Part shown: positions 135 through 27,497 of the stretch, one piece after another
Layout: every line of letters starts with the position of its first letter
Numbering within the stretch: position 1 is the first letter of the stretch
Origin: an uncultured Bacteroidales bacterium
Lineage (GTDB): Bacteria; Bacteroidota; Bacteroidia; Bacteroidales; Bacteroidaceae
Direction of reading: 5' to 3'
DNA length: 38,300 bases
NCBI GenBank assembly: GCA_945787885.1
Contig: CALZJF010000021.1
Location: forward strand, 1-38,300
Made by a program: the position numbers and the translations under genes
Notes under the pieces: generated by a model
Seen by the model: only the letters and a program-made list of their open reading frames with translations
Database searches by the model: none
What the model was told of the DNA's origin: nothing

Positions 135-323
135 GGTAGGTTCTATAAATTAGCTTGCGATGTATTTGCGACTATCGTACCGTAGGTTTTTGTTTTTCAC
201 GAGGGAGCGTAGCGGGCTACGTGACTGAATGAAAGACAAAAAGATACGGTGCGAGAGGCGTGAAGACATCCAAGTAAAACAGAAACACTGCCTTGCATTG
301 AAACCTAATTTATAGAACCTACC
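135..323. mobile_element. Family A MITE-like element, copy 1
   Basis: This is a 189-bp non-coding element with perfect 19-bp terminal inverted repeats: GGTAGGTTCTATAAATTAG at 135-153 and its exact reverse complement at 305-323. It is flanked by the 4-bp direct repeat ACCA (131-134 and 324-327), as expected for a target duplication. The interior is an imperfect palindrome, with CCGTA and TTTTTGT on the left facing ACAAAAA and TACGG on the right. Its apex is CGTAGC-GG-GCTACG at 208-221. Two further 189-bp copies lie at 7480 and 27309. It is inserted inside a B-type element. Confidence 0.88.
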
Positions 324-327
324 ACCA

Positions 328-360
328 TACTTACCATAAAACATTTTTTTAATACCTACT
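328..360. mobile_element. Right end of the interrupted B-type element
   Basis: After the family A insertion, the sequence resumes with the terminal part of family B and ends with ATACCTACT at 360. It aligns with the outer arm of the copy at 27103-27292 in reverse complement. The next gene starts 8 bp further on, so this arm forms most of its upstream region. Confidence 0.65.
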
Positions 361-368
361 TTGCTTCC

Positions 369-1238
369 ATGCTGCGCAAACTACTGCTTGACTGGATAGA
401 CGAAGGTGCAGGCAATGAGGAGTTTCAGCAGGCACGACGCCTCAGGCAAAACATGGCGCACCTGACGCTGGTGGGGAAGCTGATTGAAGAAAACCATACG
501 GTGGCATATCCCATCAGGGGACGAAGTATGCGCATCTTCATCGAGCACGACCGCGACAAAGTCGTGCTCGCACCGTTCGCCCCTGAAAAGCTCAGGCGTG
601 GCGATGTGGTGCTGGCACGGATTTCGGCGGAACGCTTTGTACTACACCGCATTATCCATGCTGAGGGCGAACTGCTGACGCTGATGGGCGACGGCAATCT
701 GAACGAGACTGAACACTGCCGAAGGTGCGACGTCAGCGCATTGGCAGTGGGGTTTCTACGAAAAGGGCGTAAAAAGCCTGACCGCACCTCTGGCTGGAAA
801 TGGCGCATCTACTCAGAACTATGGGTGCGGCTGAGCACCTGCCGAAAAAGCCTGCTGCTGGCATGGCGACTGAAAGAAAGGCTCCTGCGATGTGTGGGGC
901 TGCAGGCTGACACATACAGACGTGCCCTTCCAACTTTCAAACACCCTATAGCTCCCGATACCAAAATGCGCTTCAACCCCTCTTTTGAATCGAGAAACGT
1001 CTGCGGAGAATTTGTGGTCATTAACTTCACACAGGAGCCTATCGACTTCTGCCAGTTGATACACTTCAATGAGACGGCGGCTGATATTTACCAGCATTTT
1101 CAGCAGAAAGACTTTAACATAAAAGATATTACGGACTATCTGACAGAGAATTACGATGTCGGACAACATGAGGCAGAGACGAGCGTCAGGGCAATGATTG
1201 ACGACCTCAGGCCCACTCGCCTTCTCCTGCTGCCGTAG
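369..1238 (+). CDS. S24/S26 signal-peptidase-like domain fused to a PqqD-like domain
   Basis: This 289-aa protein has two recognisable parts. Residues ~45-130 resemble the S26 peptidase fold: GRSM at 51-54 (candidate nucleophile Ser53), RRGDVV at 76-81, HRI at 93-95 and GDGN at 107-110. A His in the HRI position, rather than Lys, is the Ser-His arrangement of the SipW/Sec11 branch. The linker (~130-200) is rich in Arg, Lys and Trp and may lie on a membrane. Residues ~200-289 resemble PqqD, the small domain that presents peptides to modifying enzymes in RiPP pathways (FNETAADIYQHF, then two helices). I infer a role in processing or maturing a peptide. No precursor peptide or radical-SAM gene is visible in the window, but the upstream neighbour is cut off. 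The ATG is 8 bp after a mobile-element end. yidC starts 44 bp downstream on the same strand. Confidence 0.7.
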   Translation: MLRKLLLDWIDEGAGNEEFQQARRLRQNMAHLTLVGKLIEENHTVAYPIRGRSMRIFIEHDRDKVVLAPFAPEKLRRGDVVLARISAERFVLHRIIHAEGELLTLMGDGNLNETEHCRRCDVSALAVGFLRKGRKKPDRTSGWKWRIYSELWVRLSTCRKSLLLAWRLKERLLRCVGLQADTYRRALPTFKHPIAPDTKMRFNPSFESRNVCGEFVVINFTQEPIDFCQLIHFNETAADIYQHFQQKDFNIKDITDYLTENYDVGQHEAETSVRAMIDDLRPTRLLLLP

Positions 1239-1282
1239 CCCCCTCTCCCCTTCAAATTCCCTTTGCAATCAAAATACCGAAT

Positions 1283-3190
1283 ATGGACAAAAATACAATT
1301 ACAGGTCTGGTGCTTATAGCGACCGTGCTCTTCGGCTATTCGTTCTGGGCGAACCGCAACGCCGAACAATATGCTGCGCAGGAAACCGCAGAGCAGACGC
1401 AGACCACCGAGAAAACTTCTGCCCCAAAAGCCATCACTCCGACAATTCAGAATGCCGTGGAGACTGCTGATTCCACCGCACTCTTCTTTGAGGCTCGCAA
1501 ACGGAACACGCAAGCGGCCGTCATTCTGCACAACGGAAAGATGGAGGCCATCATCAATCCGAAAGGCGGACAGGTGGCGCGCGTGAATCTGAATGAGTTT
1601 AAGAGCTATCAGGTGTATCACGAAGGTGGGAACGCACCGCTCAATCTCTATAACGAGCGCGATGCTAAACTTAATTTCGTCTTTGAAACCAAAGAGGAGA
1701 ACATCAACACCGACGACTTCTACTTCACGGCTGAGAATGCCACGGACTCTACGGTGACGATGGTGCTGGCCGATGCTTCGGGCGCACGCCTGTGTTTCGA
1801 CTATAAGCTCTCGAAAGACTATATGCTGAACATGACGGTGCGCACGGAGGGCATGAAAAACCTCTTCTCGCCGAAGACAAAAACCTTCAGCATCGACTGG
1901 CAAGACCGCGTGCGCCAACACGAAAAGGGCTTCTACTTTGAAAACATGTATTCCACGCTGACCTATAAGGAAGCGGATGGCGATACGGAGAAGCTCAAGG
2001 AGCAGGGCGACGAGAATGAGAATGCCGAACAGGGCGTGAGATGGGTGGCTTTCAAGAATCAATACTTCTCCAGCTGTTTGATAGCCAAAGAGCTGCTTTC
2101 CGACTGCAAATTCTCCAGCATACAGATGGAGGAGGGTTCGGGCTACCTGAAGGCCTACACCGCTCAGGCTGAAGCCGCCTTCGATGCCAGCGGAAAGCAG
2201 CCCACGGAACTGCAGTTCTACTTCGGACCCAACAACTTCCGCCTGCTGCAATCAATGGACAAGCAGAGCGTGACGAACGACGACCTCGACCTGCAAGACC
2301 TCGTCTATCTCGGATGGCCCGTCATTCGATGGATCAACCGTTTCTTCACCCTCTATGTCTTTGACTTCCTCACGGCTGCCAACCTCCCCATGTGGCTCGT
2401 GCTGCTGCTCATCACGCTTCTGCTCCGCGTCTTGGTCTATGTGCCTACGCGCAAGAGCTTCCTCAGTTCTGCCAAGATGCGCGTGCTGCGCCCGAAGGTG
2501 GAGGAAATCAACAAGAAATATCCGAATCAGGAAGATGCCATGAAGCGTCAGCAGGAGATGATGACGCTTTATAGCCAATATGGCGCGAGCCCGATGGGAG
2601 GATGTCTGCCCATGCTCATTCAGATGCCTATCTGGATTGCCATGTTCAACTTCGTGCCGAACGCTATCGAGATGCGCCAGCAGTCGTTCCTCTGGGCAGA
2701 TGACCTCTCTGCCTACGACGATGTCATTTCCTGGGGAACGGAAATATGGGGACTGGGCAATCATCTATCCCTCTTCTGCATCCTCTTCTGCGCCACCAAC
2801 CTCCTCTATAGCTATCTGTCCATGCGCCAGCAGAAAGACATGATGGCGGGGAACCCCGAACAGATGCAACAGATGAAGATGATGCAGTGGATGATGTATC
2901 TCATGCCGCTCATGTTCTTCTTCATGTTCAACAAATATTCTGCCGGACTGAACTACTACTATTTCATCTCGCTCCTCTTCTCCGCCCTGACGATGTGGTA
3001 TCTCCGCAAGACGACGGACGATGAAAAGCTGCTGGCAAAGCTGGAAGACTACTACCAGAAACAGCGCAACAACCCGAACAAGAAGACGGGCGGACTCGCC
3101 GCACGACTGCAGGCCCTGCAAGAACAGCAGCAGGCTCTGCTCGACGAGCAACGCGCCCGCAACCGCGCCGCACGCGAAGAGAAAAAATAA
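1283..3190 (+). CDS. yidC: Membrane protein insertase YidC
   Basis: YidC inserts and folds inner-membrane proteins, alone or with SecYEG. The 635-aa length is normal for Bacteroidetes. The start MDKNTITGLVLIATVLFGYSF is the typical N-terminal signal-anchor helix. A large periplasmic domain follows (~60-340). The conserved 60KD_IMP core then spans ~345-600, with TM segments around NLPMWLVLLLITLLLRVLVY, SPMGGCLPMLIQMPIWIAMF, LSLFCILFCATNLLY and MYLMPLMFFFMF. Arg382 in the first core helix fits the positive charge of the hydrophilic groove. The tail (~600-635) is basic and glutamine-rich, as in YidC proteins that contact ribosomes. In many Bacteroidales pyrG precedes yidC (from memory). Here the preceding gene is the S26/PqqD fusion. 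Confidence 0.97.
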   Translation: MDKNTITGLVLIATVLFGYSFWANRNAEQYAAQETAEQTQTTEKTSAPKAITPTIQNAVETADSTALFFEARKRNTQAAVILHNGKMEAIINPKGGQVARVNLNEFKSYQVYHEGGNAPLNLYNERDAKLNFVFETKEENINTDDFYFTAENATDSTVTMVLADASGARLCFDYKLSKDYMLNMTVRTEGMKNLFSPKTKTFSIDWQDRVRQHEKGFYFENMYSTLTYKEADGDTEKLKEQGDENENAEQGVRWVAFKNQYFSSCLIAKELLSDCKFSSIQMEEGSGYLKAYTAQAEAAFDASGKQPTELQFYFGPNNFRLLQSMDKQSVTNDDLDLQDLVYLGWPVIRWINRFFTLYVFDFLTAANLPMWLVLLLITLLLRVLVYVPTRKSFLSSAKMRVLRPKVEEINKKYPNQEDAMKRQQEMMTLYSQYGASPMGGCLPMLIQMPIWIAMFNFVPNAIEMRQQSFLWADDLSAYDDVISWGTEIWGLGNHLSLFCILFCATNLLYSYLSMRQQKDMMAGNPEQMQQMKMMQWMMYLMPLMFFFMFNKYSAGLNYYYFISLLFSALTMWYLRKTTDDEKLLAKLEDYYQKQRNNPNKKTGGLAARLQALQEQQQALLDEQRARNRAAREEKK

Positions 3191-3272
3191 GCGGAAAGAT
3201 ATAGAAGCGGATATATATAAGCGGAGAGAAACAACAAAAGAAAAGTTCTCAAAACCCTAAACTCCTACAACC

Positions 3273-5555
3273 TTGGATATCAAGACTTCGATTATGGCTA
3301 TCGTCATGGCAGCCGGACTTTCAACAGGCACAGCCGAAAGCCATGCTGAAAATCCCATTGTAAAGCAGAGTAGCATGGCGTTCAAGACTGACTTGCTCAC
3401 GCCTGAAGCGCTGTGGGCGATGGGGCGCATCGGAAATGTTGCCCTCAGTCCCGACGGACAGCAGATGGTCTATACGGTCAGCTATTACAGCGTTGAGCAA
3501 AACAAAAGTCGCTCAATGATTTACCGCTACGACTTCAGGCAGGCTTCTTCGCAACTCCTGACGGACAGCGAGGCGGGACTGAGCGAGGCGGCTCCTGCAT
3601 GGGTGAAGATGCCCAACGGACAGACGCGCATCGCATTCCTCTGCAAAGGTCAGCTGTGGAGCATGAACTCTGACGGCTCTGACCGCCAACAACTTACACA
3701 CGACGATGCGGGCATCGGCGACTTCCTCTTCGCACCGGATGGCAGACGCGTCATACTCGTGAAGGAGGTGGAACAGCACACTTCCATTGCCAAGAACGAT
3801 GCAGACCTTCCGCTCGCCACGGGCATGGTCATCAATGACTTGATGTACAAGCACTGGGACCACTACGTCATGACGGCACCCCATCCCTTCCTGGCAGACG
3901 TGACTGCTGAGGGCATCAACGCTGGCACCGACATGCTCGCGGGCGAGCCTTACGAATGCCCCATGGAACCCTTCGGCGGCGTGGAGCAACTGGCCTGGTC
4001 GCCGGATTCCAAATTCATTGCCTACACCTGCCGCAAGAAAACGGGACGCGACTATGCCGTCTCGACCGACTCCGACATCTTCTACTATAACGTCGAGACC
4101 GGACGCACGGAGTGCAATCTGCTAAAACCTGCCGACTTCAAAGCGCCGGAGTATGACTATGTGCGTTCGCTGAAACGGCAGACAGTCAATGCCGGCACTT
4201 CCTCTCACCCGAAGGCGATGGGGGGAGCCCCTTTTGCGGGATATGACGACAATCCTGCCTTCTCGCCTGATGGAAGATACATGGCTTTCCGCTCCATGGA
4301 GCGCGATGGCTATGAGAGCGACCGCACACGCCTCGTCGTCCTCGACCGTCAGACGGGAGATTTCAAATTCGTCAGCGAACACTTGGATGTCAATCAGGCT
4401 GAAAAGCAAAGCGGCGTGGAAGACTATGTCTGGAGTCCTGACTCGCGATGCCTCTACTTCACTGCCGTTTGGCACGGCAAGACGAACATCTACGTGACGA
4501 ATTTGGAGGGCAAGGTGAAGCAACTGACTGACGATCAGGCTGACTATGGTATTTCCGCCATCACGCCCGACGGCAGCGGACTCCTCTGCAAGCGTCATTC
4601 CATGGCGGCTCCTGATGAGATTTATCTCCTTCGCCTCGACACGAAGGGCATTGACCGCGCCCTGAAATCAAAGAAATTCTGCAGCGACGTGCAGAATGGG
4701 CTGGCAAAGGTGGAGCAACTGACCTGCGAAAACAAACTCTTCTATGACAACCTCGCATGGGGAGATGTCAGACCGAGATGGGTGAGAACGACGGACAATA
4801 AGGATATGCTATGCTGGGTGGTCTATCCCCCTCACTTCGACCCCTCCAAACGCTATCCTACGCTCCTCTTCTGCGAGGGTGGACCGCAAAGTCCTGTCAG
4901 CCAGTTCTGGAGCTACCGTTGGAATATGCAAATCATGGCTGCAAATGGCTACATCGTCATTGCCCCCAACCGCCGCGGTCTGCCGGGCTTCGGCATGGAA
5001 TGGCTCGAACAGATTTCGGGCGACTACACGGGGCAGTGCATGAAGGACTATCTCAGTGCCATCGACGATGTTTGCCGGGAGCCGTACGTGGACAGCGAAC
5101 ACCTGGGCTGCGTAGGAGCATCCTTCGGCGGCTTCAGCGTCTATTGGCTGGCGGGTAACCACGAGAAACGCTTCAAAGCCTTCATTGCCCACGATGGTAT
5201 TTACAACACGCAGCAGCAATACGTAGAGACGGAAGAACTCTGGTTCCCCAACTGGGATATGGGGGCCGCACCGTGGGTGGCTGCAGCGGAGAGCGAGCAG
5301 CAAAAGGTGTTCACCACCTCGCCCCACCTCTATGTAGGCCGCTGGGACACGCCGATTCTCTGCATACACGGCCAGAAAGACTTCCGCATTGAATACACGC
5401 AGGCTGAAAGTGCCTTTACGGCTGCCAAGATGAGGGGCATTGATGCGCAATTGCTCCTCTTCCCCGATGAAAACCACTGGGTGCTGAAACCTCAGAACGG
5501 CATTCTCTGGCAGCGCACCTTCTTCCGCTGGCTCGACAAATATCTCAAGCCCTGA
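3273..5555 (+). CDS. S9 family serine peptidase, dipeptidyl-peptidase 5 (DPP5)-like
   Basis: This is a 760-aa prolyl-oligopeptidase-family enzyme with a beta-propeller (~40-470; repeats such as ALSPDGQQMVY, AWSPDSKFIAY, VWSPDSRCLYF) and a C-terminal alpha/beta hydrolase domain. The catalytic triad is visible: Ser617 in GASFGGF, Asp703 in GQKDFRI and His735 in DENHWV. The C-terminal part strongly resembles Porphyromonas DPP5 (FIAHDGIYN, WDTPILCIHG, LKPQNGILWQRTFF), which releases dipeptides in the periplasm. The start is uncertain. A TTG at 3273 gives a better export signal (MDIKTSIMAIVMAAGLSTGTAESHA) than the ATG at 3294. It lies 82 bp after yidC and 71 bp before an MFS permease, which may import its products. 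Confidence 0.9.
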   Translation: MDIKTSIMAIVMAAGLSTGTAESHAENPIVKQSSMAFKTDLLTPEALWAMGRIGNVALSPDGQQMVYTVSYYSVEQNKSRSMIYRYDFRQASSQLLTDSEAGLSEAAPAWVKMPNGQTRIAFLCKGQLWSMNSDGSDRQQLTHDDAGIGDFLFAPDGRRVILVKEVEQHTSIAKNDADLPLATGMVINDLMYKHWDHYVMTAPHPFLADVTAEGINAGTDMLAGEPYECPMEPFGGVEQLAWSPDSKFIAYTCRKKTGRDYAVSTDSDIFYYNVETGRTECNLLKPADFKAPEYDYVRSLKRQTVNAGTSSHPKAMGGAPFAGYDDNPAFSPDGRYMAFRSMERDGYESDRTRLVVLDRQTGDFKFVSEHLDVNQAEKQSGVEDYVWSPDSRCLYFTAVWHGKTNIYVTNLEGKVKQLTDDQADYGISAITPDGSGLLCKRHSMAAPDEIYLLRLDTKGIDRALKSKKFCSDVQNGLAKVEQLTCENKLFYDNLAWGDVRPRWVRTTDNKDMLCWVVYPPHFDPSKRYPTLLFCEGGPQSPVSQFWSYRWNMQIMAANGYIVIAPNRRGLPGFGMEWLEQISGDYTGQCMKDYLSAIDDVCREPYVDSEHLGCVGASFGGFSVYWLAGNHEKRFKAFIAHDGIYNTQQQYVETEELWFPNWDMGAAPWVAAAESEQQKVFTTSPHLYVGRWDTPILCIHGQKDFRIEYTQAESAFTAAKMRGIDAQLLLFPDENHWVLKPQNGILWQRTFFRWLDKYLKP

Positions 5556-5626
5556 AATTCAGAGAATAAAAAATTTTTCAATAACGGTGTGAATAGCGCA
5601 CCAAATAACACACACACTTCATCTCC

Positions 5627-7240
5627 ATGTCAAAAACAAAAACACTGAGAGATTCTGCCACACTGCGCTGGACCGCCCTCCTGCTCCTCGCCCTGGCCAT
5701 GTTCTGTTCATACATCTTTATGGACATTCTCTCGCCCATCAAAGCCCTGATGCAGGAAACGCGCGGCTGGGACTCCACTGCGTTCGGCACGATGCAGGGT
5801 TCGGAGACGTTCCTCAACGTCTTCGTCTTCTTCCTCATCTTTGCGGGTATCATCCTCGACAAGATGGGAGTTCGCTTCACCGCACTGCTCTCAGGCGTGG
5901 TAATGCTCATCGGTGCCACCATCAACTGGTATGCCGTGACGGAGGCCTTCATGGCAAGCAATCTCCATGTATGGTTCACGAACAATCTGAACTACATCCC
6001 CGTCTTCGATGAGCTTGGCGTTTCGCCGTTCTACGAGGGTATGCCTGCCTCAGCCAAGTTCAGTGCCGTAGGCTTCATGATTTTCGGTTGCGGTGTAGAA
6101 ATGGCCGGTATCACCGTCAGCCGCGGTATCGTAAAATGGTTCAAGGGCCGCGAAATGGCACTTGCCATGGGTTCTGAAATGGCACTCGCACGCCTCGGCG
6201 TAGCCACCTGCATGATTTTCTCGCCCATGTTCGCCACGCTCGGCGGTGTCGTCGATGTTTCGCGCTCCGTAGCCTTCGGCGTCATCCTGCTGCTCATCGC
6301 CTTGATCATGTTCATCGTCTATTTCTTCATGGACCGCAAACTCGATCAGCAGACGGGCGAAGAAGAGGAGAAGGACGCGCCCTTCCAAATCAAGGACATC
6401 GGTGCCATCCTCTCCAGCAAGGGCTTCTGGCTCGTAGCTCTCCTCTGCGTGCTCTACTACAGTGCCATCTTCCCCTTCCAGAAATATGCCGTGAATATGC
6501 TGGAGTGCAACCTCACGTTCCATCCCGTTCCCGAAGATAGCTTTTGGGCAGGAAGCAATGTGACCCTCATCCAGTACGTCATCATGCTCATCACGGCGGG
6601 AGCTGCCTTTGCCAGCAACTTCACACGCCGTGAACTGAGATACCCTCTCCTCAGCATTGCCGTCATAGCCTTGATAGCTTTCTGCTATATGGGCTATATG
6701 CGCCAGTCGGCTGCCACGGTGTTCTCCGTGTTCCCCCTTCTCGCCGTGGGTATCACTCCCATCCTCGGCAACTATCTTGACCGCAACGGCAAGGCTGCCA
6801 CGATGCTCATCCTCGGCTCCATTCTTCTCATTGCCTGCCATCTGACGTTTGCCTTCGTGCTCCCGATGTTCAAGGGCAGCGAAGTGGCTGGTGTCATCGT
6901 GGCCTACGTCACCATCCTCGTCCTCGGTGCGAGCTTCTCGCTGGTTCCTGCATCCCTTTGGCCCAGCGTTCCCAAACTCGTAGATGAGAAGATTATCGGT
7001 TCTGCCTACGCCTTGATTTTCTGGATTCAGAACATCGGCCTCTGGCTCTTCCCCATGCTTATCGGCAAGGTGCTCGATGCCAGCAACCAGGGCGTGACTG
7101 ACCCGATGAAGTTCGACTATACCAATCCGCTCCTCATGCTGGCAGGACTGGGCGTTGCCGCCTTCGTCATCGGTCTGATACTGAAGGTGGAAGACAAGCG
7201 CAAGAATCTTGGTCTTGAAAATCCCAACATCATGAAATAA
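5627..7240 (+). CDS. MFS transporter (12-TM permease), substrate unknown
   Basis: This 537-aa integral membrane protein has about twelve hydrophobic segments and the duplicated loop signature of the major facilitator superfamily: LDKMGVRF after TM2 in the N-terminal half and LDRNGKAA in the C-terminal half. A charged cytoplasmic loop (QTGEEEEKDAPFQIKD, ~residues 243-260) separates the halves. The opening RWTALLLLALAMFCSYIFMD recalls the MFSD1-like branch, which includes dipeptide carriers, but this is a weak resemblance from memory. Its position directly after the DPP5-like peptidase gene makes dipeptide import a reasonable inference. A strong intrinsic terminator follows the stop codon, so it is the last gene of this transcription unit. 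Confidence 0.85.
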   Translation: MSKTKTLRDSATLRWTALLLLALAMFCSYIFMDILSPIKALMQETRGWDSTAFGTMQGSETFLNVFVFFLIFAGIILDKMGVRFTALLSGVVMLIGATINWYAVTEAFMASNLHVWFTNNLNYIPVFDELGVSPFYEGMPASAKFSAVGFMIFGCGVEMAGITVSRGIVKWFKGREMALAMGSEMALARLGVATCMIFSPMFATLGGVVDVSRSVAFGVILLLIALIMFIVYFFMDRKLDQQTGEEEEKDAPFQIKDIGAILSSKGFWLVALLCVLYYSAIFPFQKYAVNMLECNLTFHPVPEDSFWAGSNVTLIQYVIMLITAGAAFASNFTRRELRYPLLSIAVIALIAFCYMGYMRQSAATVFSVFPLLAVGITPILGNYLDRNGKAATMLILGSILLIACHLTFAFVLPMFKGSEVAGVIVAYVTILVLGASFSLVPASLWPSVPKLVDEKIIGSAYALIFWIQNIGLWLFPMLIGKVLDASNQGVTDPMKFDYTNPLLMLAGLGVAAFVIGLILKVEDKRKNLGLENPNIMK

Positions 7241-7283
7241 TCTTCTGGCTGAAACCATCTTTCAACCACGCATCAGCAAAACG

Positions 7284-7464: not shown

Positions 7465-7689
7465 ATGAAAATTAGTTTAGGTAGATTCTATAAATTAGCT
7501 TGCGATGTATTTGCGACTATCGTGCCGTAGGTTTTTGTTTTTCACGAGGGAGCGTAGCGGGCTACGTGACTGAATGAAAGACAAAAAGATACGGTGCGAG
7601 AGGCGTGAAGACATCCAAGCAAGACAGAAACACTGCCTTACATTGAAAACTAATTGATAGAACCTACCTTTACAGTAAGATTCCCTACT
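7457..7689. mobile_element. Remnant B-type element interrupted by family A copy 2
   Basis: The left end AGTAGGCAATGAAAATTAG begins at 7457 after TA (7455-7456). A short right end, CAGTAAGATTCCCTACT, is at 7673-7689. Most of the interior is missing, and the 189-bp family A element plus its TTTA duplication sits between the two ends. This is the second case of A nested in B in this window. The right boundary is degenerate, so this call is less certain than the complete copies. Confidence 0.5.
7480..7668. mobile_element. Family A MITE-like element, copy 2
   Basis: This 189-bp copy is nearly identical to those at 135 and 27309. Its ends are GGTAGATTCTATAAATTAG and CTAATTGATAGAACCTACC, with one substitution in each compared with copy 1. 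The flanking 4-bp direct repeat is TTTA (7476-7479 and 7669-7672). The central palindrome and the CGTAGC-GG-GCTACG apex are intact. No open reading frame of note lies within it. Confidence 0.88.
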
Positions 7690-7693
7690 TCAA

Positions 7694-10049: not shown

Positions 10050-10238
10050 AGTAGATAATGAAAATTAGTTTTTTGTTTGCATGCTCTCTTTGGCGCATCT
10101 CTTAGCCTTGAAAGCAGTCACAAGGCAGGCTATGCTCCTTGATTTCAAGACCAAACCTGCATCCAAACAGTGCATTCAAACATACAAACCATAAACATTC
10201 TTACTATAACTACAATAAAATTATTTTCATTACCCACC
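10050..10238. mobile_element. Family B MITE-like element, copy 1 (porU-porV junction)
   Basis: This 189-bp palindromic element has diverged ends, AGTAGATAATGAAAATTAG on the left and ATTTTCATTACCCACC on the right. The dinucleotide TA is on both sides (10048-10049 and 10239-10240). The stem core resembles the copies at 23072 and 27103 (CTCTCTTTGGCGCATCT, TATGCTCC, ATTCAAACATA). On the minus strand, the right-hand TA and the first element base form the porU stop codon TAG. Confidence 0.85.
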
Positions 10239-16512: not shown

Positions 16513-17904
16513 TTATTCAAACGCTCCCATACGCAGCATATTGACCTCTTCTTCCGTCAGGAATCGCCAATCGCCGCGCTTCACATTCTTCTTCGTAAGT
16601 CCGGCAAAATATACGCGGTCGAGCTTCACGACATGATAACCAAGGCTTTCGAAGATGCGGCGCACGATACGATTTCTTCCTGAATGGATTTCTATTCCCA
16701 CCTGCTTTTTGTCCGTATCGCTGGCATAGTCAATAGCGTCGGCAGCAATCTCGCCATCTTCGAGGGTGATTCCCTCTGCTATCTGGCGAATATCAGCCGC
16801 CGTCACATTGCGGTCGAGATAAACATGATATATTTTCTTCTTCATGAAGGTGGGGTGCGTCAGTTTGCTGGCCAGTTCGCCATCGTTCGTCAGCAGGAGC
16901 ACTCCCGTAGTGTTGCGGTCCAGTCGTCCCACGGGGTAGATACGCTCACGGCAAGCCTTAGCCACGAGGTCCATCACTGTCTTACGGTTCTGCGGGTCTT
17001 CGCTGGTAGTCACGTAGCCTTTAGGCTTATTAAGCAGCACATACACTTTCTTCTCAGCCTTCACCTGCTGGTCATGGAAGAGCACGGTGTCGCTTCTCAA
17101 CACCTTGTGTCCGAGTTCGGTGATGATTTCTCCGTTCACCGTAACCACACCAGCAGCGATATATTTGTCAGCATCGCGCCGACTGCAGACACCCGCATTC
17201 GCCAAAAATTTATTCAGGCGAATCGGCTCATTGGGGTCATAGGGCTGCTCTTTATAGTCAATGCGACGTTTTCCAGGGTTCTGACGCTTGAAGGGTGCAG
17301 GCTTTCTGCCACGCTGCTGACCGTAACCGCGCTGCTGGCCATAGCCTCCCTGCTGTGCGCCATAGCCACCGCGGTAGCCTCCGCGCTGCTGGCCATAACT
17401 GCTGCCCTCACTGGTCTGTGGGCGGAACCCCTCGCCAGCATATACATTCTGTGATGCAAAGCCGCCGTCATGACCACCGTCATGGTTATATGAGCGTCGC
17501 TGTCCGCCGCCGCGCTGACCATAGCCACCCTGCTGTGCGCCGTAGCCACCACGGTAGCCTCCGCGCTGCTGATAGCTACCTTCAGAGTTCCAGGGTCGCC
17601 GCTGCTGGCCGTCACGCTGGAAACCTCCGCGCTGTCTGCCATAGCCTTCACCGTCCTGCCGTTGCTGGCCACCACGCTGAAATCCACCGCGCTGTGGGCC
17701 ATAGCTGCCGTCGCGATGCTCTTGCTGCATGCCGTGATAACGGTTAGGGCGTTCATCACCATAGAAATGTCGCCCGCGATTGCCTTCCGAAGAGAAGTTG
17801 CGGCCATAATTTCCACCACGCTGACGGTTGTATTCACCGTCGTGGTTCGAAGGAGTATAGCCTTCACGGCTGCCTCCATCGTACTTCTTGTTCATTTCTG
17901 ACAT
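16513..17904 (-). CDS. rluB: Ribosomal large-subunit pseudouridine synthase (RluB-type) with RGG-rich N-terminal extension
   Basis: The C-terminal half is a standard RsuA/RluB-family enzyme that isomerises uridine in 23S rRNA. It has an S4 RNA-binding domain (~228-285: RLNKFLANAGVCSRRDADKYI) and a catalytic domain with Asp329 in GRLDRNTTG, ending with GRNRIVRRIFESLGY. The first ~222 residues are unusual: low complexity, rich in Gly, Gln, Arg and Tyr, with nine RGG motifs and a duplicated block (QRGGYRGGYGAQQGGYGQ). Such extensions on RluB are known in Bacteroidetes and probably bind RNA. The DNA is also repetitive there (17300-17400 against 17505-17580), so the copy number may vary between strains. 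asnS follows 48 bp downstream and purB lies upstream on the same strand. Confidence 0.92.
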   Translation of the reverse strand: MSEMNKKYDGGSREGYTPSNHDGEYNRQRGGNYGRNFSSEGNRGRHFYGDERPNRYHGMQQEHRDGSYGPQRGGFQRGGQQRQDGEGYGRQRGGFQRDGQQRRPWNSEGSYQQRGGYRGGYGAQQGGYGQRGGGQRRSYNHDGGHDGGFASQNVYAGEGFRPQTSEGSSYGQQRGGYRGGYGAQQGGYGQQRGYGQQRGRKPAPFKRQNPGKRRIDYKEQPYDPNEPIRLNKFLANAGVCSRRDADKYIAAGVVTVNGEIITELGHKVLRSDTVLFHDQQVKAEKKVYVLLNKPKGYVTTSEDPQNRKTVMDLVAKACRERIYPVGRLDRNTTGVLLLTNDGELASKLTHPTFMKKKIYHVYLDRNVTAADIRQIAEGITLEDGEIAADAIDYASDTDKKQVGIEIHSGRNRIVRRIFESLGYHVVKLDRVYFAGLTKKNVKRGDWRFLTEEEVNMLRMGAFE

Positions 17905-21365: not shown

Positions 21366-21394
21366 TCCTTTGGTATAATAAACAATTATGGCAG

Positions 21395-21426: not shown

Positions 21427-21473
21427 GCAAAGATTGTCAAAAACCCCCTCCGTTTGCTGAAATTCAGTCAAAT

Positions 21474-21506
21474 TTTCGTCACATTGGCTTTTATGTGCTA
21501 ATTTTG
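21474..21506 (+). promoter_or_regulatory. Promoter of the DUF4831 gene
   Basis: TAATTTTG at 21499-21506 fits the -7 box TAnnTTTG. The -33 box is weak: TTTC at 21474-21477, spacing 21. It points toward the DUF4831 gene, leaving a leader of about 130 nt, and is divergent from the der promoter. Confidence 0.6.
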
Positions 21507-21644
21507 CATTCAAGAATTATCAACTCCATGCCCCCGCAGGCCTCGCACGATGGCTTCGCACAAGAGTCTCATCATGCGCTGCTGCCCCTGTTGGTCTGCA
21601 CGCACTTTTTCAAAATCACCCTTTCCTTTTTCATATATTAAAAC

Positions 21645-22739
21645 ATGAAATCTCTCCGTTGCATCCTCCTCCCCCATCTGCTCCTACTCACAGCCCTCCC
21701 CATCGCCTCCACAGCCGTAGGCCAGACCCTCGTCAGCCCCTATACCCCCGGCGTGACCGCCGAAGGCATCACGTATTTCCTCCCCGAGACCCACGTTCGC
21801 CTCGTCCTGACTGCCACGCGCCGCTGCCATACCCCCGGCGAATATGCACAATATGCTGAGCGCTATCTGGGCATCAGCGATGCGACCACTGAGTCCTACG
21901 AAACGTGGACACTCGACAACGTGGAGATGATTCCCTACGGTGTCCCCGACACGAGCAAAGTCTATACCATAGCCCTCGCCTCCAAGACGAGTGCTCCCCT
22001 CGTCAGCCTCACCCCCGATGGCATCCTCCTTGCCGTCAATGCCGAAGTTCACCAGCCCAGCCCACTCCCTGAGGCCTCCTGCACGCCCCTGCCAACTCCC
22101 GCCCTCAACGCTTCTGACTATCTCACTGCCGACATCCTCCGGGCTGCCACTCGCGCCAAGCGGGCGGAGCTCGCCGCACAGGAGATTTATGACATTCGCG
22201 AGAACCGCAGCCTCCTCGCCAAAGGTTTGGCCGACTTCAACCCTGCCGACGGCGAACAGCTGAAGACGATGCTCCAGCAGCTCGCCACAGCTGAGCAGGC
22301 TCTGACCACGCTCTTCACGGGCAGCGAGCGCGCAGAACGCCACACCTTCGTCTTCGACTTCTGCCCTCGCGCTGCCGTCGAGCGTCAGCTCCTGTTCCGT
22401 TTCTCCAAATTCCTCGGCCTCGTCGATGCCGACGACTTGGCAGGCGAACCTTTCTATGTCAGCGTCGCCAACGAAACGCGTCTCCCGGAATCTTCCCTCG
22501 ACGGCAAGAAGAAGAAAAAGGAGAAGCCCGACCTTCGCTATTGCCTCCCCGGGCGCGCCCGCATCACGCTATCGTCGGCTTCCGAAACGATTACTGAGAC
22601 CATCATTGCCGTAGCACAGATGGGAAGAGTGGAACATCTCGGCGGCGAGCTCTTCAACAAGAAGTTCACCACCCACGTCATGCTGAACCCCGTCACGGGC
22701 AATATCGAAAAAATTTCTTCTGAGGAAGAAGAGGAATAA
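21645..22739 (+). CDS. DUF4831 family exported protein
   Basis: This 364-aa protein has a signal peptide (MKSLRCILLPHLLLLTALPIASTAVGQ). The family's N-terminal pattern follows: GVTAEGITYFLPET, then RRCHTPGEYAQYAERYLGI, a segment resembling the start of many Bacteroidales DUF4831 proteins. A helical stretch at ~165-225 (AELAAQEIYDIRENRSLLAKGL) precedes a beta-rich C-terminal half and a very acidic end (SSEEEEE). The family has no known function to my knowledge; it is probably periplasmic or outer-membrane associated. It has its own promoter and terminator, so it is a single-gene unit. Confidence 0.85.
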   Translation: MKSLRCILLPHLLLLTALPIASTAVGQTLVSPYTPGVTAEGITYFLPETHVRLVLTATRRCHTPGEYAQYAERYLGISDATTESYETWTLDNVEMIPYGVPDTSKVYTIALASKTSAPLVSLTPDGILLAVNAEVHQPSPLPEASCTPLPTPALNASDYLTADILRAATRAKRAELAAQEIYDIRENRSLLAKGLADFNPADGEQLKTMLQQLATAEQALTTLFTGSERAERHTFVFDFCPRAAVERQLLFRFSKFLGLVDADDLAGEPFYVSVANETRLPESSLDGKKKKKEKPDLRYCLPGRARITLSSASETITETIIAVAQMGRVEHLGGELFNKKFTTHVMLNPVTGNIEKISSEEEEE

Positions 22740-22762
22740 GCCCACGCTAAAAGTTCCAAAGG

Positions 22763-22797
22763 AAAGGGGGCGGACCGCTGCGGTCCGCCCCCTTTTT
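22763..22797 (+). terminator. Rho-independent terminator after the DUF4831 gene
   Basis: GGGGGCGGACCG (22766-22777) pairs with CGGTCCGCCCCC (22781-22792) around a 3-nt loop, followed by TTTTT. This is a very stable GC-rich stem, 24 bp after the stop codon. Confidence 0.92.
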
Positions 22798-22865
22798 CCT
22801 TCCCATTTCACAGGCATTCATGCGACGGGTTCAGACATCGCATTGGCTACACCTCTCAACATATA

Positions 22866-23492
22866 TCACTCATCATATTCAATGCCTGCTTTCTCCAGCA
22901 TTTCGCGCACTTCGTCATCGAACGACATTCTTTTGTGATGTGCTTTTTGATTCGCTATATAATTGCTGACAGCTGGCAAAAACGATTTGCTGTACGAGAA
23001 TGCACCACACCCCGTTTGCCATGCAAAATTCACGCCGCCATGCTGTTCCCTGATGTGCATCGTTGCTTGTAAGTAGGTAATAAAAATTATTTTATAGTAA
23101 GTATATAGTAGAAATTATGATGGTTTGTATGTTTGAACGCTCTCTTTGGCGCATCTTTTAGCCTTGAAAACAGTCACATAGCTCGCTATGCTCCTTTATT
23201 TCAAGACTAAAATCTGCATCCAAATAGAGCATTCAAACATAAAACTAATTTTCATTACCTACTTATCTTCAACGATTGCACCCATTCCGACAGAGCTTCC
23301 TTTGGTGTCATGCCAAAAAATGCACATCATCCTCCACCCCATTTATTATATATGGCGTATGCCCGTGGTTCTTGAGTGCGCCTGCCATATAACGATACAA
23401 TTCCTCTTGCCATTCGCGACGTATCAATGCCTCGCGTCCCTTAACGGCAAAGATGACATACGTATATATATTTGGGTATATGTATTTGCCAT
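22866..23492 (-). pseudogene. Inactivated Y1 (IS200/IS605-type) transposase, interrupted by a family B element
   Basis: The start ATG at 23492 encodes MANTYTQIY, then a frameshift moves the reading to VIFAVKGREALIRREWQEEL. The HUH region reads DDVHFL instead of the usual DHVHFL, and a second frameshift follows (next frame: FGMTPKEALSEWVQSLKI). A 192-bp family B element then splits the gene. The C-terminal part (QATMHIREQHGGVNFAWQTGCGAFSYS in the next block) includes NYIANQKAHH, with the candidate catalytic Tyr, and ends EKAGIEYDE. Removing the element and one TA gives ...TTG AAG ATA CAA GCA ACG ATG..., an in-frame L-K-I-Q-A-T-M. A B-type end also touches the start codon at 23494. Confidence 0.85.
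23072..23263. mobile_element. Family B MITE-like element, copy 2 (inside transposase pseudogene)
   Basis: This 192-bp element has ends AGTAGGTAATAAAAATTA and AATTTTCATTACCTACT and is flanked by TA (23070-23071 and 23264-23265). Inner arms pair, TATGTTTGAACGCTCT with AGAGCATTCAAACATA, and the apex is CATAGC-TC-GCTATG. It carries no gene. Its TA duplication is visible because the interrupted gene can be read through. Confidence 0.9.
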
Positions 23493-23493
23493 A

Positions 23494-23513
23494 AGTAGGT
23501 AATGAAAAAATCA
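23494..23513. mobile_element. Solitary family B end at the transposase start codon
   Basis: AGTAGGTAATGAAAAAATCA starts right after TA (23492-23493), whose complement supplies the first bases of the transposase start codon. The rest of the element is not recognisable further right. Confidence 0.55.
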
Positions 23514-23574
23514 TTGATTATGGCAGGCTGCAAGCATGTTCCCGAGGTGAAAATACTGAGCTGTTCGACCATTT

Positions 23575-23700
23575 CAGGGAGGCATCCACCCAAAAATGAC
23601 CACATTCCGCCCTCAAAGTAATCACTATCACCCCTCCATGTGGTCACATTGCCCCCTCAAAGTGGCCACATGGAGATGAAAATCACCGTAGAAAAACGTG
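23575..23700. repeat. Short inverted and repeated motifs related to repeat C
   Basis: CCATGTGGTCAC (23636-23647) and GTGGCCACATGG (23662-23673) form an 11/12 inverted repeat. The reverse complement of the region contains TGACCACAT, GGGGGCAA, TGATTACTTTGAGGG and TGGTCATTTT, motifs of the same type as the start of repeat C (7725-7795 and 37790-37855). From 23700 to 23940 I see no gene or clear signal. Confidence 0.45.
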
Positions 23701-23966
23701 AAAAACACGGTAAAAATGGGGATTCTCAAACCAAACATGGGGGAAACTCTCTGCATCCTGACCTCACATCGTCCGTTCTGCCCACGAAAATCGACCTTTC
23801 CGACCACTATTTTCTCTATTCGCAGAGGCAATCCTGACGGAAATTACGGCTTGAAAAAGTAAGTTTTTTTAGCCATACCCCTTTTCGATTTCAGAAATGT
23901 CATGCGCAGAGAACGCACGACAAACTGGCGTTTTTTGAAAAAAAAGAGACATTTTTGCGCCATAGT

Positions 23967-23998
23967 CTTGCTACATCGGGGAAGATGGGCTATATTTG
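23967..23998 (+). promoter_or_regulatory. Promoter of rubrerythrin gene
   Basis: The -7 box TATATTTG is at 23991-23998 and a -33 box CTTG is at 23967-23970, with 20 nt between them. The leader to the rubrerythrin ATG at 24045 is about 40 nt. Confidence 0.75.
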
Positions 23999-24044
23999 CA
24001 CCCGTCAAAAAAACCACATTAACCATCAACAACAAACGCACAAC

Positions 24045-24587
24045 ATGAAAAACAACAAGTATGCCGGCACGCAGACCGAGAAAAATCTGGAAGCCGCTTT
24101 CGCCGGAGAATCTCAGGCCCGCAACAAATACACCTACTTCGCTTCCAAGGCTAAGAAAGAAGGCTTCGAGCAGATTGCAGCCCTCTTCCTCAAGACCGCC
24201 GACAATGAGAAAGAGCATGCCAAACTGTGGTTCAAGGAGCTGAACGGCTTGGGCGACACGGCAGAAAACCTGCTGGATGCTGCTGAGGGCGAGAACTACG
24301 AATGGACGGACATGTATGAGGGATTCGCCAAGACTGCCGATGAGGAAGGATTCCACGAGCTCGCCGCAAAGTTTCGCCTCGTAGCTGCCATCGAGCGTCG
24401 TCACGAGGAGCGTTATCGCGCACTGCTCCACAATGTGAAGATGGCAGAAGTGTTCGCCAAGAGCGAGGTGAAGGTGTGGGAATGCCGCAACTGCGGACAC
24501 ATCGTCGTAGGCACGGAGGCTCCCGAACTCTGCCCCACCTGCGCTCATCCGAAGGCTTACTTCGAACTGCTCGCTGAGAACTACTAA
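24045..24587 (+). CDS. rbr: Rubrerythrin
   Basis: Rubrerythrin reduces hydrogen peroxide to water in anaerobes using a diiron site and a rubredoxin-type iron. I start at [15 protein letters not shown] (180 aa), because an upstream ATG at 23955 lies before the promoter. The N-terminal four-helix domain has the diiron ligands in ENLRPAR-like position [26 protein letters not shown] and [10 protein letters not shown]. The C-terminal rubredoxin domain (~145-180) has CRNCGH and CPTCAHPK. It is a single gene between its own promoter and a terminator. Confidence 0.96.
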
Positions 24588-24630
24588 TTCTCTTAGAGTC
24601 ATATCCCCCCACTCCTCGTAAAGGGAGAAA

Positions 24631-24674
24631 AATCAGGGCGCGGCCAGACCGAATGAGTCTGCCGCGCCCTGATT
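24631..24674. terminator. Bidirectional terminator between rubrerythrin and patB genes
   Basis: AATCAGGGCGCGGC (24631-24644) pairs with the matching arm ending at 24674, and an inner CAGAC/GTCTG stem continues it with one mismatch. The flanks have TTACGTTT on the plus side and TTTTCTCCCTTT on the minus side. The two genes converge here. Confidence 0.85.
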
Positions 24675-24709
24675 ACGTTTGTCGTGGGGGGAAATAAGAA
24701 GGAGGAGTG

Positions 24710-25900
24710 TTACTGCTCGATGTCGGCAGCAAGGCGAATGGCATCGCGCAGCTGCTCAAGGGCTTGCTGCAAGACGCTGCGAGGAGAGGCGATGTTCATG
24801 CGCATGAAGCCTTCACCGCCGGGGCCGAACATTGCGCCATCGTTGAGAGCCAGACGGGCTCGACGAACGAAGAGGTCGATGAGACGGGAGTGGGAAAGAC
24901 GGAGGGCGCGGCAGTCAATCCATACGAGGAAGGAGGCCTGCGGCCGCCAAGGCTTCAGCAGGGGCATCTCGCGCTCGCAGAAAGCGCGGACAAACTCATA
25001 GTTCGCCTCCACATACCGCAACATCTCCTGCCGCCACTCTTCGCCCTCGCGGAAGGCGGCTATCGTGGCAATGGGGGCAAAAAGAGTGGGTTCGTTCAGC
25101 TCGTTTGCCTGTAACCAGGAGAAGAAGGCATGGCGCAGGCGGGCATCGGGGACGATGGCGTAAGAGCTGACGATGCCGGCGATGTTGAATGTCTTTGAGG
25201 GCGCGCCGAAGGTGATGCTACAGGAGCGGGCGGCTTCGGAGACGCTGGCGAAGGGGATATGGCGATTGCCCCACAGTGCCATGTCGCAGTGAATTTCATC
25301 GCTAATGACGATGATGCCGCGCTCGGCACAAAATTCTGCCAGACGCTCCAGCGTGGGGCGACTCCAGACGATGCCGGCAGGATTGTGGGGATTGGAGAGG
25401 ATGAGCATTCGGCAGCGAGGGTCGGAGGCTATGTCGGCGAGCTGGTCGAAGTCCATTTCGTAGGTTTCGCCCTGCTCGCGCAGGGGGTTCAGCACCACCT
25501 CGCGATGGTTTCCCTCGGGCGTCAGGCGGAAGGGGTGATAGACGGGGGGCTGAATAATGACCTTCTCGTCGGGCTTCACAAAGACATTGATGGCCATGCC
25601 TATGCCTTTGACAATGCCGGGTATGTAGGTCATCCATTCGCGCTGCGGCCGCCATCCGTGGTGACTTTCTATCCAGCTGATGACGGTGGGCCAATAGTCG
25701 GGGGGCTCGACGGTGTAGCCATAGAGGGAATGCTCCAGACGGCGACGCAGGGCTTCCGTAATGAACGGGGGCGTCAGGAAATCCATGTCTGCCACCCACA
25801 GGGGCAGAAGATGGGCATCGCCGTATCGCTCCTCAAGCACTTCGAGCTTCAATGCGCCCGTGCCAGAGCGGTCGATGACGGTATCAAAATCGTATTTCAT
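24710..25900 (-). CDS. PatB/MalY-type PLP-dependent C-S lyase (cystathionine beta-lyase)
   Basis: This 396-aa fold-type I PLP enzyme belongs to the MalY/PatB group, which cleaves C-S bonds in cystathionine or cysteine. Group landmarks are KYDFDTVIDRSGTGALK at the start, LPLWVADMDF (~32-41), YGYT (~61), PPVYHPF, LSNPHNPAG (~169-177), SDEIHCDM (~200-207) and the PLP Lys236 in APSKTFNIAG. It follows the other PLP gene by 18 bp on the same strand, so the two form an operon. Together they suggest methionine/cysteine interconversion or release of H2S and methanethiol. The name patB is a family assignment, not proven. Confidence 0.9.
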   Translation of the reverse strand: MKYDFDTVIDRSGTGALKLEVLEERYGDAHLLPLWVADMDFLTPPFITEALRRRLEHSLYGYTVEPPDYWPTVISWIESHHGWRPQREWMTYIPGIVKGIGMAINVFVKPDEKVIIQPPVYHPFRLTPEGNHREVVLNPLREQGETYEMDFDQLADIASDPRCRMLILSNPHNPAGIVWSRPTLERLAEFCAERGIIVISDEIHCDMALWGNRHIPFASVSEAARSCSITFGAPSKTFNIAGIVSSYAIVPDARLRHAFFSWLQANELNEPTLFAPIATIAAFREGEEWRQEMLRYVEANYEFVRAFCEREMPLLKPWRPQASFLVWIDCRALRLSHSRLIDLFVRRARLALNDGAMFGPGGEGFMRMNIASPRSVLQQALEQLRDAIRLAADIEQ

Positions 25901-25918
25901 AGTGGGAGGGTATGTAGA

Positions 25919-27094
25919 TTAGTGTGCGAGTGCTGCCTGAATGTCGGCAATAAGGTCGATGGGAGATTCGAGTCCGACGGAGAAGCGGATAAGATTGTCG
26001 AGGATGTCCATCTCGCGACGCTGCTCATCGGTGAAGTTTCCGAAGATGGTGCTGGCAGGATGTATGGCGAGCGAACGGTTGTCGAAAAGATTCGTGGCAC
26101 GCTTGATGAGTTGCAGGCGGTTGATGAAGCGGAAGCAGGCTTCGCGACTGGCAAGCTGGAAGGTGATCATCGCTCCGCCACGCGCTCCAAGCTGACGGGT
26201 AAAGACATCGTGGAAAGGGTCGGACGGCAAGGCGGGATAGCGCACGCTGACGATTTCGGGGTGTTCTGCCAGGGCTTCTGCCACACGGAGGGCATTGTCG
26301 GTCTGGACGGCATAGCGCGCCGCCAGATTCTCCAGGCCCAGCGTTTGCATGTACGCCACATGGGGCGTCATGTATGCACCGAGGTTCATCAGCATCTCCT
26401 GCCGCATCCGATGGGTGAAGGTTTCATACCGCCCATAGTCGATGACGAGACCGCCAATGGAAGTGGCACCGCCGGAGAGATATTTCGTGCTGCTCACCAC
26501 CTCAACATCAATGCCTAACGCTTTGCCGCTGAACTCGGTGAAGGGAATCATCGTCGTGTCGGCAACGAGGGGCACGCCCCGGCGATGGGCGAGGGCTGAC
26601 AATGAGGGGATGTCTGCCACCTCCATCTGAGGATTGGTGAGGATTTCCATGAAGATGCAGCAGGTGTCGTCATCCATCAGCAGTTCTACCTCGGAGGGAT
26701 GGGTGAGGTCGCAGCAGCGGACTTCGACGCCGAAACGCCTCAGCGTGCCGGAAAGGAGAGCGAAGGTGTTGCCGAAAAGATGTCGGGAGGTGACGATGTT
26801 CTTCCCTGCGGAGCTAAGGGCGAGGAGGGCATTGGAGATGGCTGCCATGCCTGAACTGAAGGCTACCACATCGGCGGCATCGGTCAGCATGCGCACCTTG
26901 CGCTCGAAATAGGTGACGGTGGGATTTGTGACGCGTGAATAGTCGGGCATATCGGAGCGTCCGCAGAAGGACTCTATCATATCCTCGGCATTGGCGAACT
27001 CATAGGCGGCGCAATGATAGACGGGCATGCTCAATGCGCCATAGGCATCCGGCTGCTGATAGCGGGCATGGATGGCTGTAGTTTGTTTTTGCAT
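25919..27094 (-). CDS. Cys/Met metabolism PLP enzyme (methionine gamma-lyase / O-acetylhomoserine sulfhydrylase-like)
   Basis: The 391-aa protein belongs to the Cys/Met-Meta-PP family. It has YSRVTNPTVTYFERKV (~52-67), SSGMAAISNALLAL (~80-93), the PLP-stacking region SRHLFGNTFALL and the PLP-binding Lys204 in SSTKYLSGG. The C-terminal core is typical (RYPALPSDPFHDVF, SLAIHPASTIF, RFSVGLESPIDLIADI). The Asn in LFGNTF, where methionine gamma-lyases have Cys and sulfhydrylases Gly, leaves the reaction open. Its start codon lies 8 bp from a family B element that fills the upstream region and contains a -7-like box. patB-like follows after 18 bp. Confidence 0.88.
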   Translation of the reverse strand: MQKQTTAIHARYQQPDAYGALSMPVYHCAAYEFANAEDMIESFCGRSDMPDYSRVTNPTVTYFERKVRMLTDAADVVAFSSGMAAISNALLALSSAGKNIVTSRHLFGNTFALLSGTLRRFGVEVRCCDLTHPSEVELLMDDDTCCIFMEILTNPQMEVADIPSLSALAHRRGVPLVADTTMIPFTEFSGKALGIDVEVVSSTKYLSGGATSIGGLVIDYGRYETFTHRMRQEMLMNLGAYMTPHVAYMQTLGLENLAARYAVQTDNALRVAEALAEHPEIVSVRYPALPSDPFHDVFTRQLGARGGAMITFQLASREACFRFINRLQLIKRATNLFDNRSLAIHPASTIFGNFTDEQRREMDILDNLIRFSVGLESPIDLIADIQAALAH

Positions 27095-27102
27095 TGTAAA
27101 TA

Positions 27103-27292
27103 AGTAGGTAACAAAATAATTTTATTGCAAATATAGTAGGTAATTATTATGGCTTGTATGTTTGAACGCCCTCTTTGGCGCATCTTTTTGCCTTGAAGAC
27201 AGTCACACAGCACGCGCCATGCTCCTTTTTCACGACTAAAGCCTGCATCGAAATAGAGCATCCTAACATAAAACGAATATTCTTTACCTACT
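27103..27292. mobile_element. Family B MITE-like element, copy 3
   Basis: This 190-bp copy has ends AGTAGGTAACAAAATAATTT and ATATTCTTTACCTACT, flanked by TA (27101-27102 and 27293-27294). The arms around GTATGTTTGAACGCCC and TAGAGCATCCTAACATA still pair, but the apex has mutated (CACAGCACGCGCCATG). It is the immediate upstream region of the gene starting at 27094. Confidence 0.88.
27128..27135 (-). promoter_or_regulatory. -7-like box inside family B copy 3
   Basis: On the minus strand the sequence is TATATTTG, a match to TAnnTTTG, ending 33 bp before the start codon of the gamma-lyase-like gene. No good -33 box is present at the usual distance. Confidence 0.45.
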
Positions 27293-27308
27293 TAGAAGTA
27301 TGTTTTTT

Positions 27309-27497
27309 GGTAGGTTCTATCAATTAGCTTGCGATGTATTTGCGACTATCGTGCCGTAGGTTTTTGTTTTTCACGAGGGAGCGTAGCGGGCTACGTGACT
27401 GAATGAAAGACAAAAAGATACGGTGCGAGAGGCGTGAAGACATCCAAGTAAAACAGAAACACTGCCTTACATTGAAAACTAATTTATAGAACCTACC
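27309..27497. mobile_element. Family A MITE-like element, copy 3
   Basis: This 189-bp copy has ends GGTAGGTTCTATCAATTAG and CTAATTTATAGAACCTACC (one mismatch) and a 4-bp flanking repeat TTTT (27305-27308 and 27498-27501). It lies 16 bp from family B copy 3 and 32 bp from the end of the kinase gene. The interior is almost identical to copies 1 and 2. Confidence 0.87.

Follow-up and report, generated by a model that had tools for sequence, protein, structure and literature searches.

A covarying hairpin core in a numerous family of miniature inverted-repeat elements of Bacteroidales, and its recurrence between other ends

We analysed a window of 38,300 bp, an entire contig (C21; CALZJF010000021.1) of the genome of an uncultured Bacteroidales bacterium of the Bacteroidaceae (GenBank assembly GCA_945787885.1; 2.70 Mb in 96 contigs, 91% complete, shortest contig 2,608 bp), and followed three 189-bp repeats in it, here called Family A, through this host genome and others. 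Our results make it probable that Family A is a very numerous and recently active family of miniature inverted-repeat transposable elements (MITEs) whose strand-specific core is kept, and is shared by elements with other ends and other targets. The elements have several of the features by which MITEs are recognised: they are short and non-coding, carry terminal inverted repeats, reach a high copy number and are flanked by a duplication of fixed length. The fold of Family A is maintained by compensatory change, and a strand-specific covarying core common to families with differing ends and target lengths goes beyond the initial annotation of this sequence, which had described palindromic, non-autonomous transposons. 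The copies, ends, duplications, empty sites, covariation, strand asymmetry and shared core each have direct support.

The three 189-bp elements lie exactly where the initial annotation had placed them, between the matching 4-bp flanks that it gave (see table). The 19-bp inverted ends are, as it stated, perfect in copy 1, and no end of copies 2 and 3 differs from them by more than one base; with up to three mismatches allowed, the window contains the terminus six times, and 100 dinucleotide shuffles yield none. The copies are indeed near-identical, copies 1 and 3 sharing 93% and 97% of positions with copy 2 (196 nt, flanks included). The word palindromic proved too modest, since the complete element folds as one long hairpin (-85.9 kcal/mol, z -11.8).

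Table. Family A copies and related features of the window. R2 is the model of the hairpin core described in the text.
Feature	Position	Strand	Remarks
Family A copy 1	135..323	+	189 bp; better-folding strand +
Copy 1, left 4-bp duplication	131..134		ACCA; direct flank; empty site found
Copy 1, right 4-bp duplication	324..327		ACCA; direct flank
Copy 1, left terminal inverted repeat	135..153	+	19 bp
Copy 1, right terminal inverted repeat	305..323	-	19 bp
Copy 1, conserved hairpin core	173..254	+	R2, 77.5 bits; copy among R2's source sequences
Family A copy 2	7480..7668	+	189 bp; duplication TTTA at 7476-7479 and 7669-7672
Copy 2, hairpin core	7518..7599	+	R2, 78.4 bits
Family A copy 3	27309..27497	+	189 bp; duplication TTTT at 27305-27308 and 27498-27501
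Copy 3, hairpin core	27347..27428	+	R2, 78.4 bits
Family B element	23072..23263	-	192 bp; other ends, AGTAGGTNNTNAAAATTA; TA both sides; same hairpin architecture; better-folding strand -
Family B copy, hairpin core	23144..23225	-	R2, 63.8 bits; not among R2's source sequences
Degenerate Family B copy	10050..10238		TA both sides; one end with 3 mismatches; below R2 reporting at E 0.1
Degenerate Family B relative adjoining copy 3	27154..27254	-	Repeat D3 27154-27240; R2 27173-27254, E 0.086, weak
Fragment truncated by contig start	1..134	+	1-52 Family A (52/52), 56-130 Family B-like (67/75); R2 13-93, 42.2 bits

Searching the whole host genome for the terminus (≤3 mismatches) yielded 214 + 224 Family A ends, against 0 + 0 for a reversed-pattern control, and hence at most about 220 elements with both ends. 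At the level of elements we surveyed 913,534 bases, about a third of the genome (8,058 of them N), pairing ends with up to four mismatches. This gave 62 paired elements, 38 of 189 bp and the others of 44-258 bp, together with 46 ends without a partner, many at contig ends or in damaged copies. The 4-bp duplication claimed for the window is borne out by further copies: of the 53 elements whose ends each have no more than one mismatch, 41 show it exactly (mismatched-flank control, 8.7%) and 49 with no more than one difference, and a match of exactly 5 bp was found in none and one of 6 bp in one. The target is TNNA: in the 42 elements scored for it, T comes first in 36 and A last in 35. Elements in other genomes show the exact 4-bp duplication in 42 of 79 rows, three host-genome and five repeated rows included; without these eight the count is 36 of 71, or 36 of the 68 with both flanks present (control, 9.2%). 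Genes were called crudely, and 39 of the 41 A elements measuring 180-260 bp fall outside the reading frames of 100 aa or more.

Empty sites were sought by joining the flanks of A and B copies, and of 53 flank pairs seven matched across the junction. The joined flanks of copy 1 match 17 uninterrupted places, and the four that were listed (83-84%) are three copies of a second family, Family B, and the degenerate relative at 27102-27192. For the A copies C1:57260 and C5:30251 the joined flanks have 10 and 20 matching places, those listed including known Family B copies; these two insertions perhaps represent one event, because they occupy an identical position within B. Reciprocally, the joined flanks of the B copy C5:54139 match two uninterrupted host A copies at 96-98%. 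We discounted three junction matches: C21:7480 gave a single match, weak and partial, C8:47902 mainly matched itself, and the B copy C3:1048 matched its own right side. The empty 4-bp target looked for in the initial annotation was hence seen through nested insertions, orthologous sites in related strains not being its source. Its suggestion of recent activity also holds: 31 of the 38 copies of 189 bp lie within 0-8 differences of the consensus, two of them at 0, the other seven being at 21-110.

The fold was studied on an alignment drawn from 65 elements of 170-215 bp, of which 37 were left after near-duplicate removal and 34, two from the host genome, were aligned; three (a hybrid and two carrying an additional insert of 20 nt) had been removed on visual inspection, and one was reoriented in the same way. 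Across genomes the length (177-198 bp in these 34 diverse elements) and the plan are kept and the interior varies. RNAalifold alone yields 46 pairs on this alignment, 31 of them with changes on both sides. A single hairpin of 68 pairs, voted from the individual folds, leaves 85.6% of cells paired and shows compensatory, both-side changes in 50 of its pairs (335 cells), and none of 500 shuffles reached any of five measures. When the partner is slid by 1-3 columns, pairing falls to 39-51% and covariation from 0.391 to 0.089-0.121. Near the apex, pair 78-90 is A-U in 17 elements, G-C in 16 and U-A in one, and pair 80-88 is A-U in 18, U-A in 15 and unpaired in one. The base of the hairpin consists of the two ends, whose pairing produces the stem-loop; immediately within the right end, the 3' side has a bulge of about 30-50 nt. 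From Family A cores only (33 sequences) we built model R2, which superseded R1, a model of only 11 pairs. Rfam gave no match at gathering score in the window, nor in five and seven further loci; below threshold there were six weak matches, four of them to microRNA families.

Comparison of the two strands reveals a clear asymmetry. In 32 of the 34 diverse A elements the better fold is that of the strand which in the window copy reads GAGGGAGC-stem-loop-GTGACTGA, and the same strand is the more stable in 39/39 host A copies, 14/14 host B copies (one of 15 was dropped as unorientable) and 25/26 copies of a third family introduced below. With DNA parameters the corresponding counts are 38/39 for host A, 14/14 for host B and 26/26 for the third family. 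The votes for the 68-pair structure came from folding the + strand of individual sequences, which biases it to that strand. To lessen this bias, we folded without G-U pairs and counted single mismatches between Watson-Crick pairs, taking either strand as the source of the structure. On the better strand, G-T mismatches outnumber A-C ones by 35 to 14 and 29 to 12 in the diverse A elements (each strand as source), by 43 to 17 and 46 to 18 in host A, by 30 to 2 and 29 to 2 in Family B, and by 19 to 3 and 36 to 2 in the third family. This excess in all four sets points to selection on a single strand, and is equally compatible with RNA and DNA.

Family B has the same hairpin architecture between other ends, and a target of TA. 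TA flanks both sides of all 12 host B copies whose ends have no more than one mismatch each, and the B copy C5:54139, inside an A element, has one added TA; among looser matches, C1:17460 is without TA on both sides. The B element of the window is more stable on its minus strand (-82.8 versus -61.5 kcal/mol). Since the A and B ends still show a resemblance (GTAGGT...AAATTAG), they may equally well have diverged from one ancestor or been exchanged between systems. Further end types surround the core in fetched loci, among them CCCAAATCGGTCATTAG, AGAGCCTGTTTAAATTTTG, AGAGGGTGTTTAATAACA and TAAGTAACTGTTCAAAATTA; of 44 loci read for end type, five were without clear ends, partly because the match position differed from that assumed, and a 45th was too short. 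The end CCCAAATCGGTCATTAG defines the third family, found in genome G372 of the Prevotella group with 243 + 231 ends (≤2 mismatches; control 0 + 0). In 400 kb of this genome such ends formed 37 pairs (≤4 mismatches per end), one being a spurious pair of 3,201 bp. An exact 5-bp duplication flanks 19 of the 37, against 20% by chance, with 4 bp in four and 6 bp in one, so that its target length is apparently 5 bp. We read these families as a superfamily of structured MITEs in which the core persists while ends and target length (TA, 2 bp; TNNA, 4 bp; apparently 5 bp) differ. As a separate observation, three loci (L356 and L358 of genome G196, and L380) hold the shared core between the ends AGAGGGTGTTTAATAACA and AGAGCCTGTTTAAATTTTG, which we presume to resemble the ends of IS5-type elements.

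The core and the ends were also followed across genomes. Model R2 found matches in four of 149 genomes of the order, host included, and in 48 of 200 genomes of the genus group of Prevotella sp. P3-122, both counts being lower bounds because only 31 and 23 candidate sites per genome, respectively, were scored. Family A ends (≤2 mismatches) number 10-120 in six of 36 genomes of the same genus (G025, 120; G030, 68; G013, 39; G010, 27; G029, 17; G036, 10) and 0-6 in the other 30; in 24 genomes from other families of the order there are 0-2, the same as in the reversed control. Throughout GTDB the exact end pattern occurs in at least 69 stretches. Matches listed there include Prevotella isolates, Prevotellamassilia timonensis An873 and Candidatus Equimonas, as well as metagenome-assembled genomes labelled Alistipes, Rikenellaceae, Paludibacteraceae, Bacteroidaceae and others; viral contigs had no match to the pattern, and a search of plasmids gave no match. 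Prevotella sp. P5-108 has one end per orientation and a single A copy (L324:6369-6557), one base off the host consensus and without an exact 4-bp duplication, a possible case of recent transfer between genera, or of contamination. This copy adjoins a 311-aa reading frame, which by eye we take to be like an IS982-type transposase. A related end pattern, GGNNNGTTCTATNAATT (≤1 mismatch), was seen 134 + 121 times in P. timonensis An873 (G032), 22 + 24 times in G081 and 25 + 20 times in G028; most of the ends listed in G032 and G028 read GGGGTG..., a further subfamily, also present in a cultured species.

Inverted ends with a fixed-length duplication suggest a DDE transposase. Such an enzyme, acting in trans, would recognise the 19-bp ends and insert the element, mostly between genes, at AT-rich TNNA sites with a 4-bp stagger. 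The strand-specific fold, with its long hairpin, short conserved apex and 3'-side bulge, is kept by compensatory change, and the core would work in single-stranded form, either as RNA or as one strand of DNA, and would stay in place as ends and transposase diverge or are swapped. The role of the fold, and end swapping as opposed to mere divergence, are matters that we infer.

Several observations weigh against this account. The 68-pair structure was voted from the very sequences on which it was scored, which alone lifts it above its slid versions, and the shuffles do not take out the relatedness of the copies. Relatedness likewise links the copies in one genome, whose strand and mismatch counts therefore cannot be taken as independent events; the energy model, moreover, favours the conserved apex purine loop on one strand. 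The folded strand agrees with same-direction neighbour genes in 16 of 24 cases, which is no clear bias on a crude gene call. Twelve of the 53 well-ended elements are without an exact duplication: eight have no flank match of 2 bp or more, and the others match over 2 bp (two), 3 bp (one) and 6 bp (one). The case for a 5-bp duplication in the third family is a modest one, the core model matches just four order genomes at the sites scored, the host being one, and no autonomous copy was found, which leaves the 4-bp transposase unproven.

A bolder version, which we entertain as a tentative possibility, is that one strand-specific RNA or single-stranded DNA module has spread in Bacteroidales on at least three unrelated transposition systems, with 2-, 4- and 5-bp cuts, so that what is conserved, as a selfish or functional unit, would be the module and not its ends. 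If so, it might be, for example, an RNA aiding its own movement or protecting host transcripts.

Family A could instead be an ordinary MITE, that is, an internal deletion of a known insertion sequence (IS) whose transposase gene is present in the strain and lost from the assembly, the fold being a by-product. We consider this unlikely. In its favour, the assembly has no contig shorter than 2,608 bp and several contigs break off within elements, so that collapsed multi-copy IS could be missing from the incomplete assembly. The host genome gave no match to PF13701 or PF01609, the two transposase families searched there, and searches across genomes covered the same two families only (PF13701 in 61 genomes, PF01609 in 58). 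Among 60 fetched transposase loci (some overlapping, and drawn from part of the listed matches) none had such ends flanking the gene on both sides, nor did any of eight end patterns, or inverted ends of any kind, lie on both sides of a transposase. The initial annotation thus holds in that the elements are non-autonomous and no autonomous partner lies in the window; its proposal of a transposase gene with the same ends found none in the PF13701 and PF01609 searches and the fetched loci, other families not having been searched. On mobilisation by an IS1380 element the same evidence bears, with no PF13701 in the host, whose assembly is incomplete, and no ends on both sides in the fetched loci; a suspected resemblance of the end to ISEcp1/IS1380 was not confirmed. 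Three of 69 fetched GTDB stretches had a long end pair at up to four mismatches: the 2,696-bp pair of L284 encloses ordinary genes and is read as coincidence, the far end in L309 is part of a separate 75-bp element, and the exact end in L311 is part of a 177-bp element. The 3,201-bp pair of L407 also encloses ordinary genes and is read in the same way. By eye, the ends listed for G004 and four further genomes contain no convincing long pair, and the starts of the reading frames listed at unpaired ends in G004, a one-contig genome, no transposase; a contig end considered as the end of an autonomous element (C81:7761-7828) belongs to another MITE subfamily. Against the ordinary MITE, then, stand the failure to find an IS with these ends among the fetched transposase loci and GTDB stretches, and the recurrence of the fold between families with different ends, which is not expected of a by-product.

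Covariation could also arise by arm homogenisation, in which template switching at replication copies one arm from the other, so that matching changes are mutational without any selection for a fold. In its favour, each element is a long inverted repeat, and the fragment at the contig start, into which copy 1 is inserted, changes family at the hairpin apex: it is Family A up to the apex and Family B beyond it, either as a real mosaic or through an assembly switch inside the shared palindrome. Copying, however, would yield perfectly complementary arms and no strand preference, contrary to the one-strand excess of G-T over A-C and to an excess of A-G over C-T of 55 to 4 (diverse A, structure from that strand). 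Furthermore, the 3'-side bulge and a 2x2 apex loop persist, and an A/B mosaic was seen in only one of 54 assignable cores, at a contig end. We therefore regard homogenisation as improbable. Single-strand transposition of the HUH/Y1 (REP/RAYT-like) kind, with the one-strand hairpin as substrate, would account for strand-specific folding in three families and is nonetheless very improbable, given that Y1 transposases are not known to leave precise 4-bp and TA duplications with inverted ends.

Other features were noted along the way. Within the window, two 65-nt direct repeats (89%) at 17327-17571 lie inside a 463-aa minus-strand reading frame (16513-17904), and the contig end at 38230-38300 resembles, by eye, the start of a tRNA gene truncated by the edge; ARAGORN reported none. 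Elsewhere in the host, sequences reading ACGTGAGTTCGA(C/T)GAA at C3:297, the start of C79 and C83:211 (L103, L172 and L176) are like the ISPg3/MITE239 ends tabulated in the accessible part of PMC4596501, and the one on C83 interrupts a Family A copy.

Among known repeats of the order, PINSR, 188 bp long, comes from Prevotella intermedia, two strains of which have 177 and 184 copies (PMC4755523). As described in the accessible part of that paper, it shares with Family A its length, intergenic position, copy number, host order and apparently non-coding nature; the authors report no terminal inverted repeats for it, whereas Family A has 19-bp inverted ends, and set it apart from MITEs. Relatedness to PINSR would be a guess, judged from description (size, number, host) and not from sequence. 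The MITEs of Porphyromonas gingivalis (BrickBuilt, MITEPgRS, MITE239 and MITE700; PMC4596501) are likewise intergenic elements of Bacteroidales, mutually nested and in some cases flanked by 4-bp duplications. According to the same part of that source, their ends match or nearly match IS of the same genome (GAGACC..., ACGT...TTCGA), whereas the ends of Family A match none found. No shared fold or core is described for them there, nor in the accessible part of the review PMC10969869. End and core strings gave no relevant match in the papers searched, and titles and the starts of abstracts on such repeats included nothing recognised as the same group.

Bacterial MITEs are usually viewed as two transposase-binding ends with filler between them. 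In these elements it is the supposed filler that is conserved from genus to genus and from one end type to the next, in the form of a strand-specific covarying fold. If true, this makes the purpose of ERIC- or Correia-like structure testable, because some genomes offer at least 100 natural copies, several end types exist, and there are cultured carriers in Prevotella and Prevotellamassilia. In practice, the elements interrupt assemblies and could serve as markers of recent transfer from one genus to another. Their closest kind is the structured MITE of the ERIC, Correia/NEMIS and RUP type which, as presented in the accessible part of PMC2229807, shares a size of about 100-200 bp, inverted ends, target duplications, a stem-loop closed by the ends, an often intergenic position and many copies. 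Those elements have TA at their ends, whereas Family A has a 4-bp TNNA duplication; Family B differs from A here in being flanked by TA. Unlike ERIC, Correia and RUP as that source portrays them, here one covarying core recurs in several groups of Bacteroidales with several types of ends.

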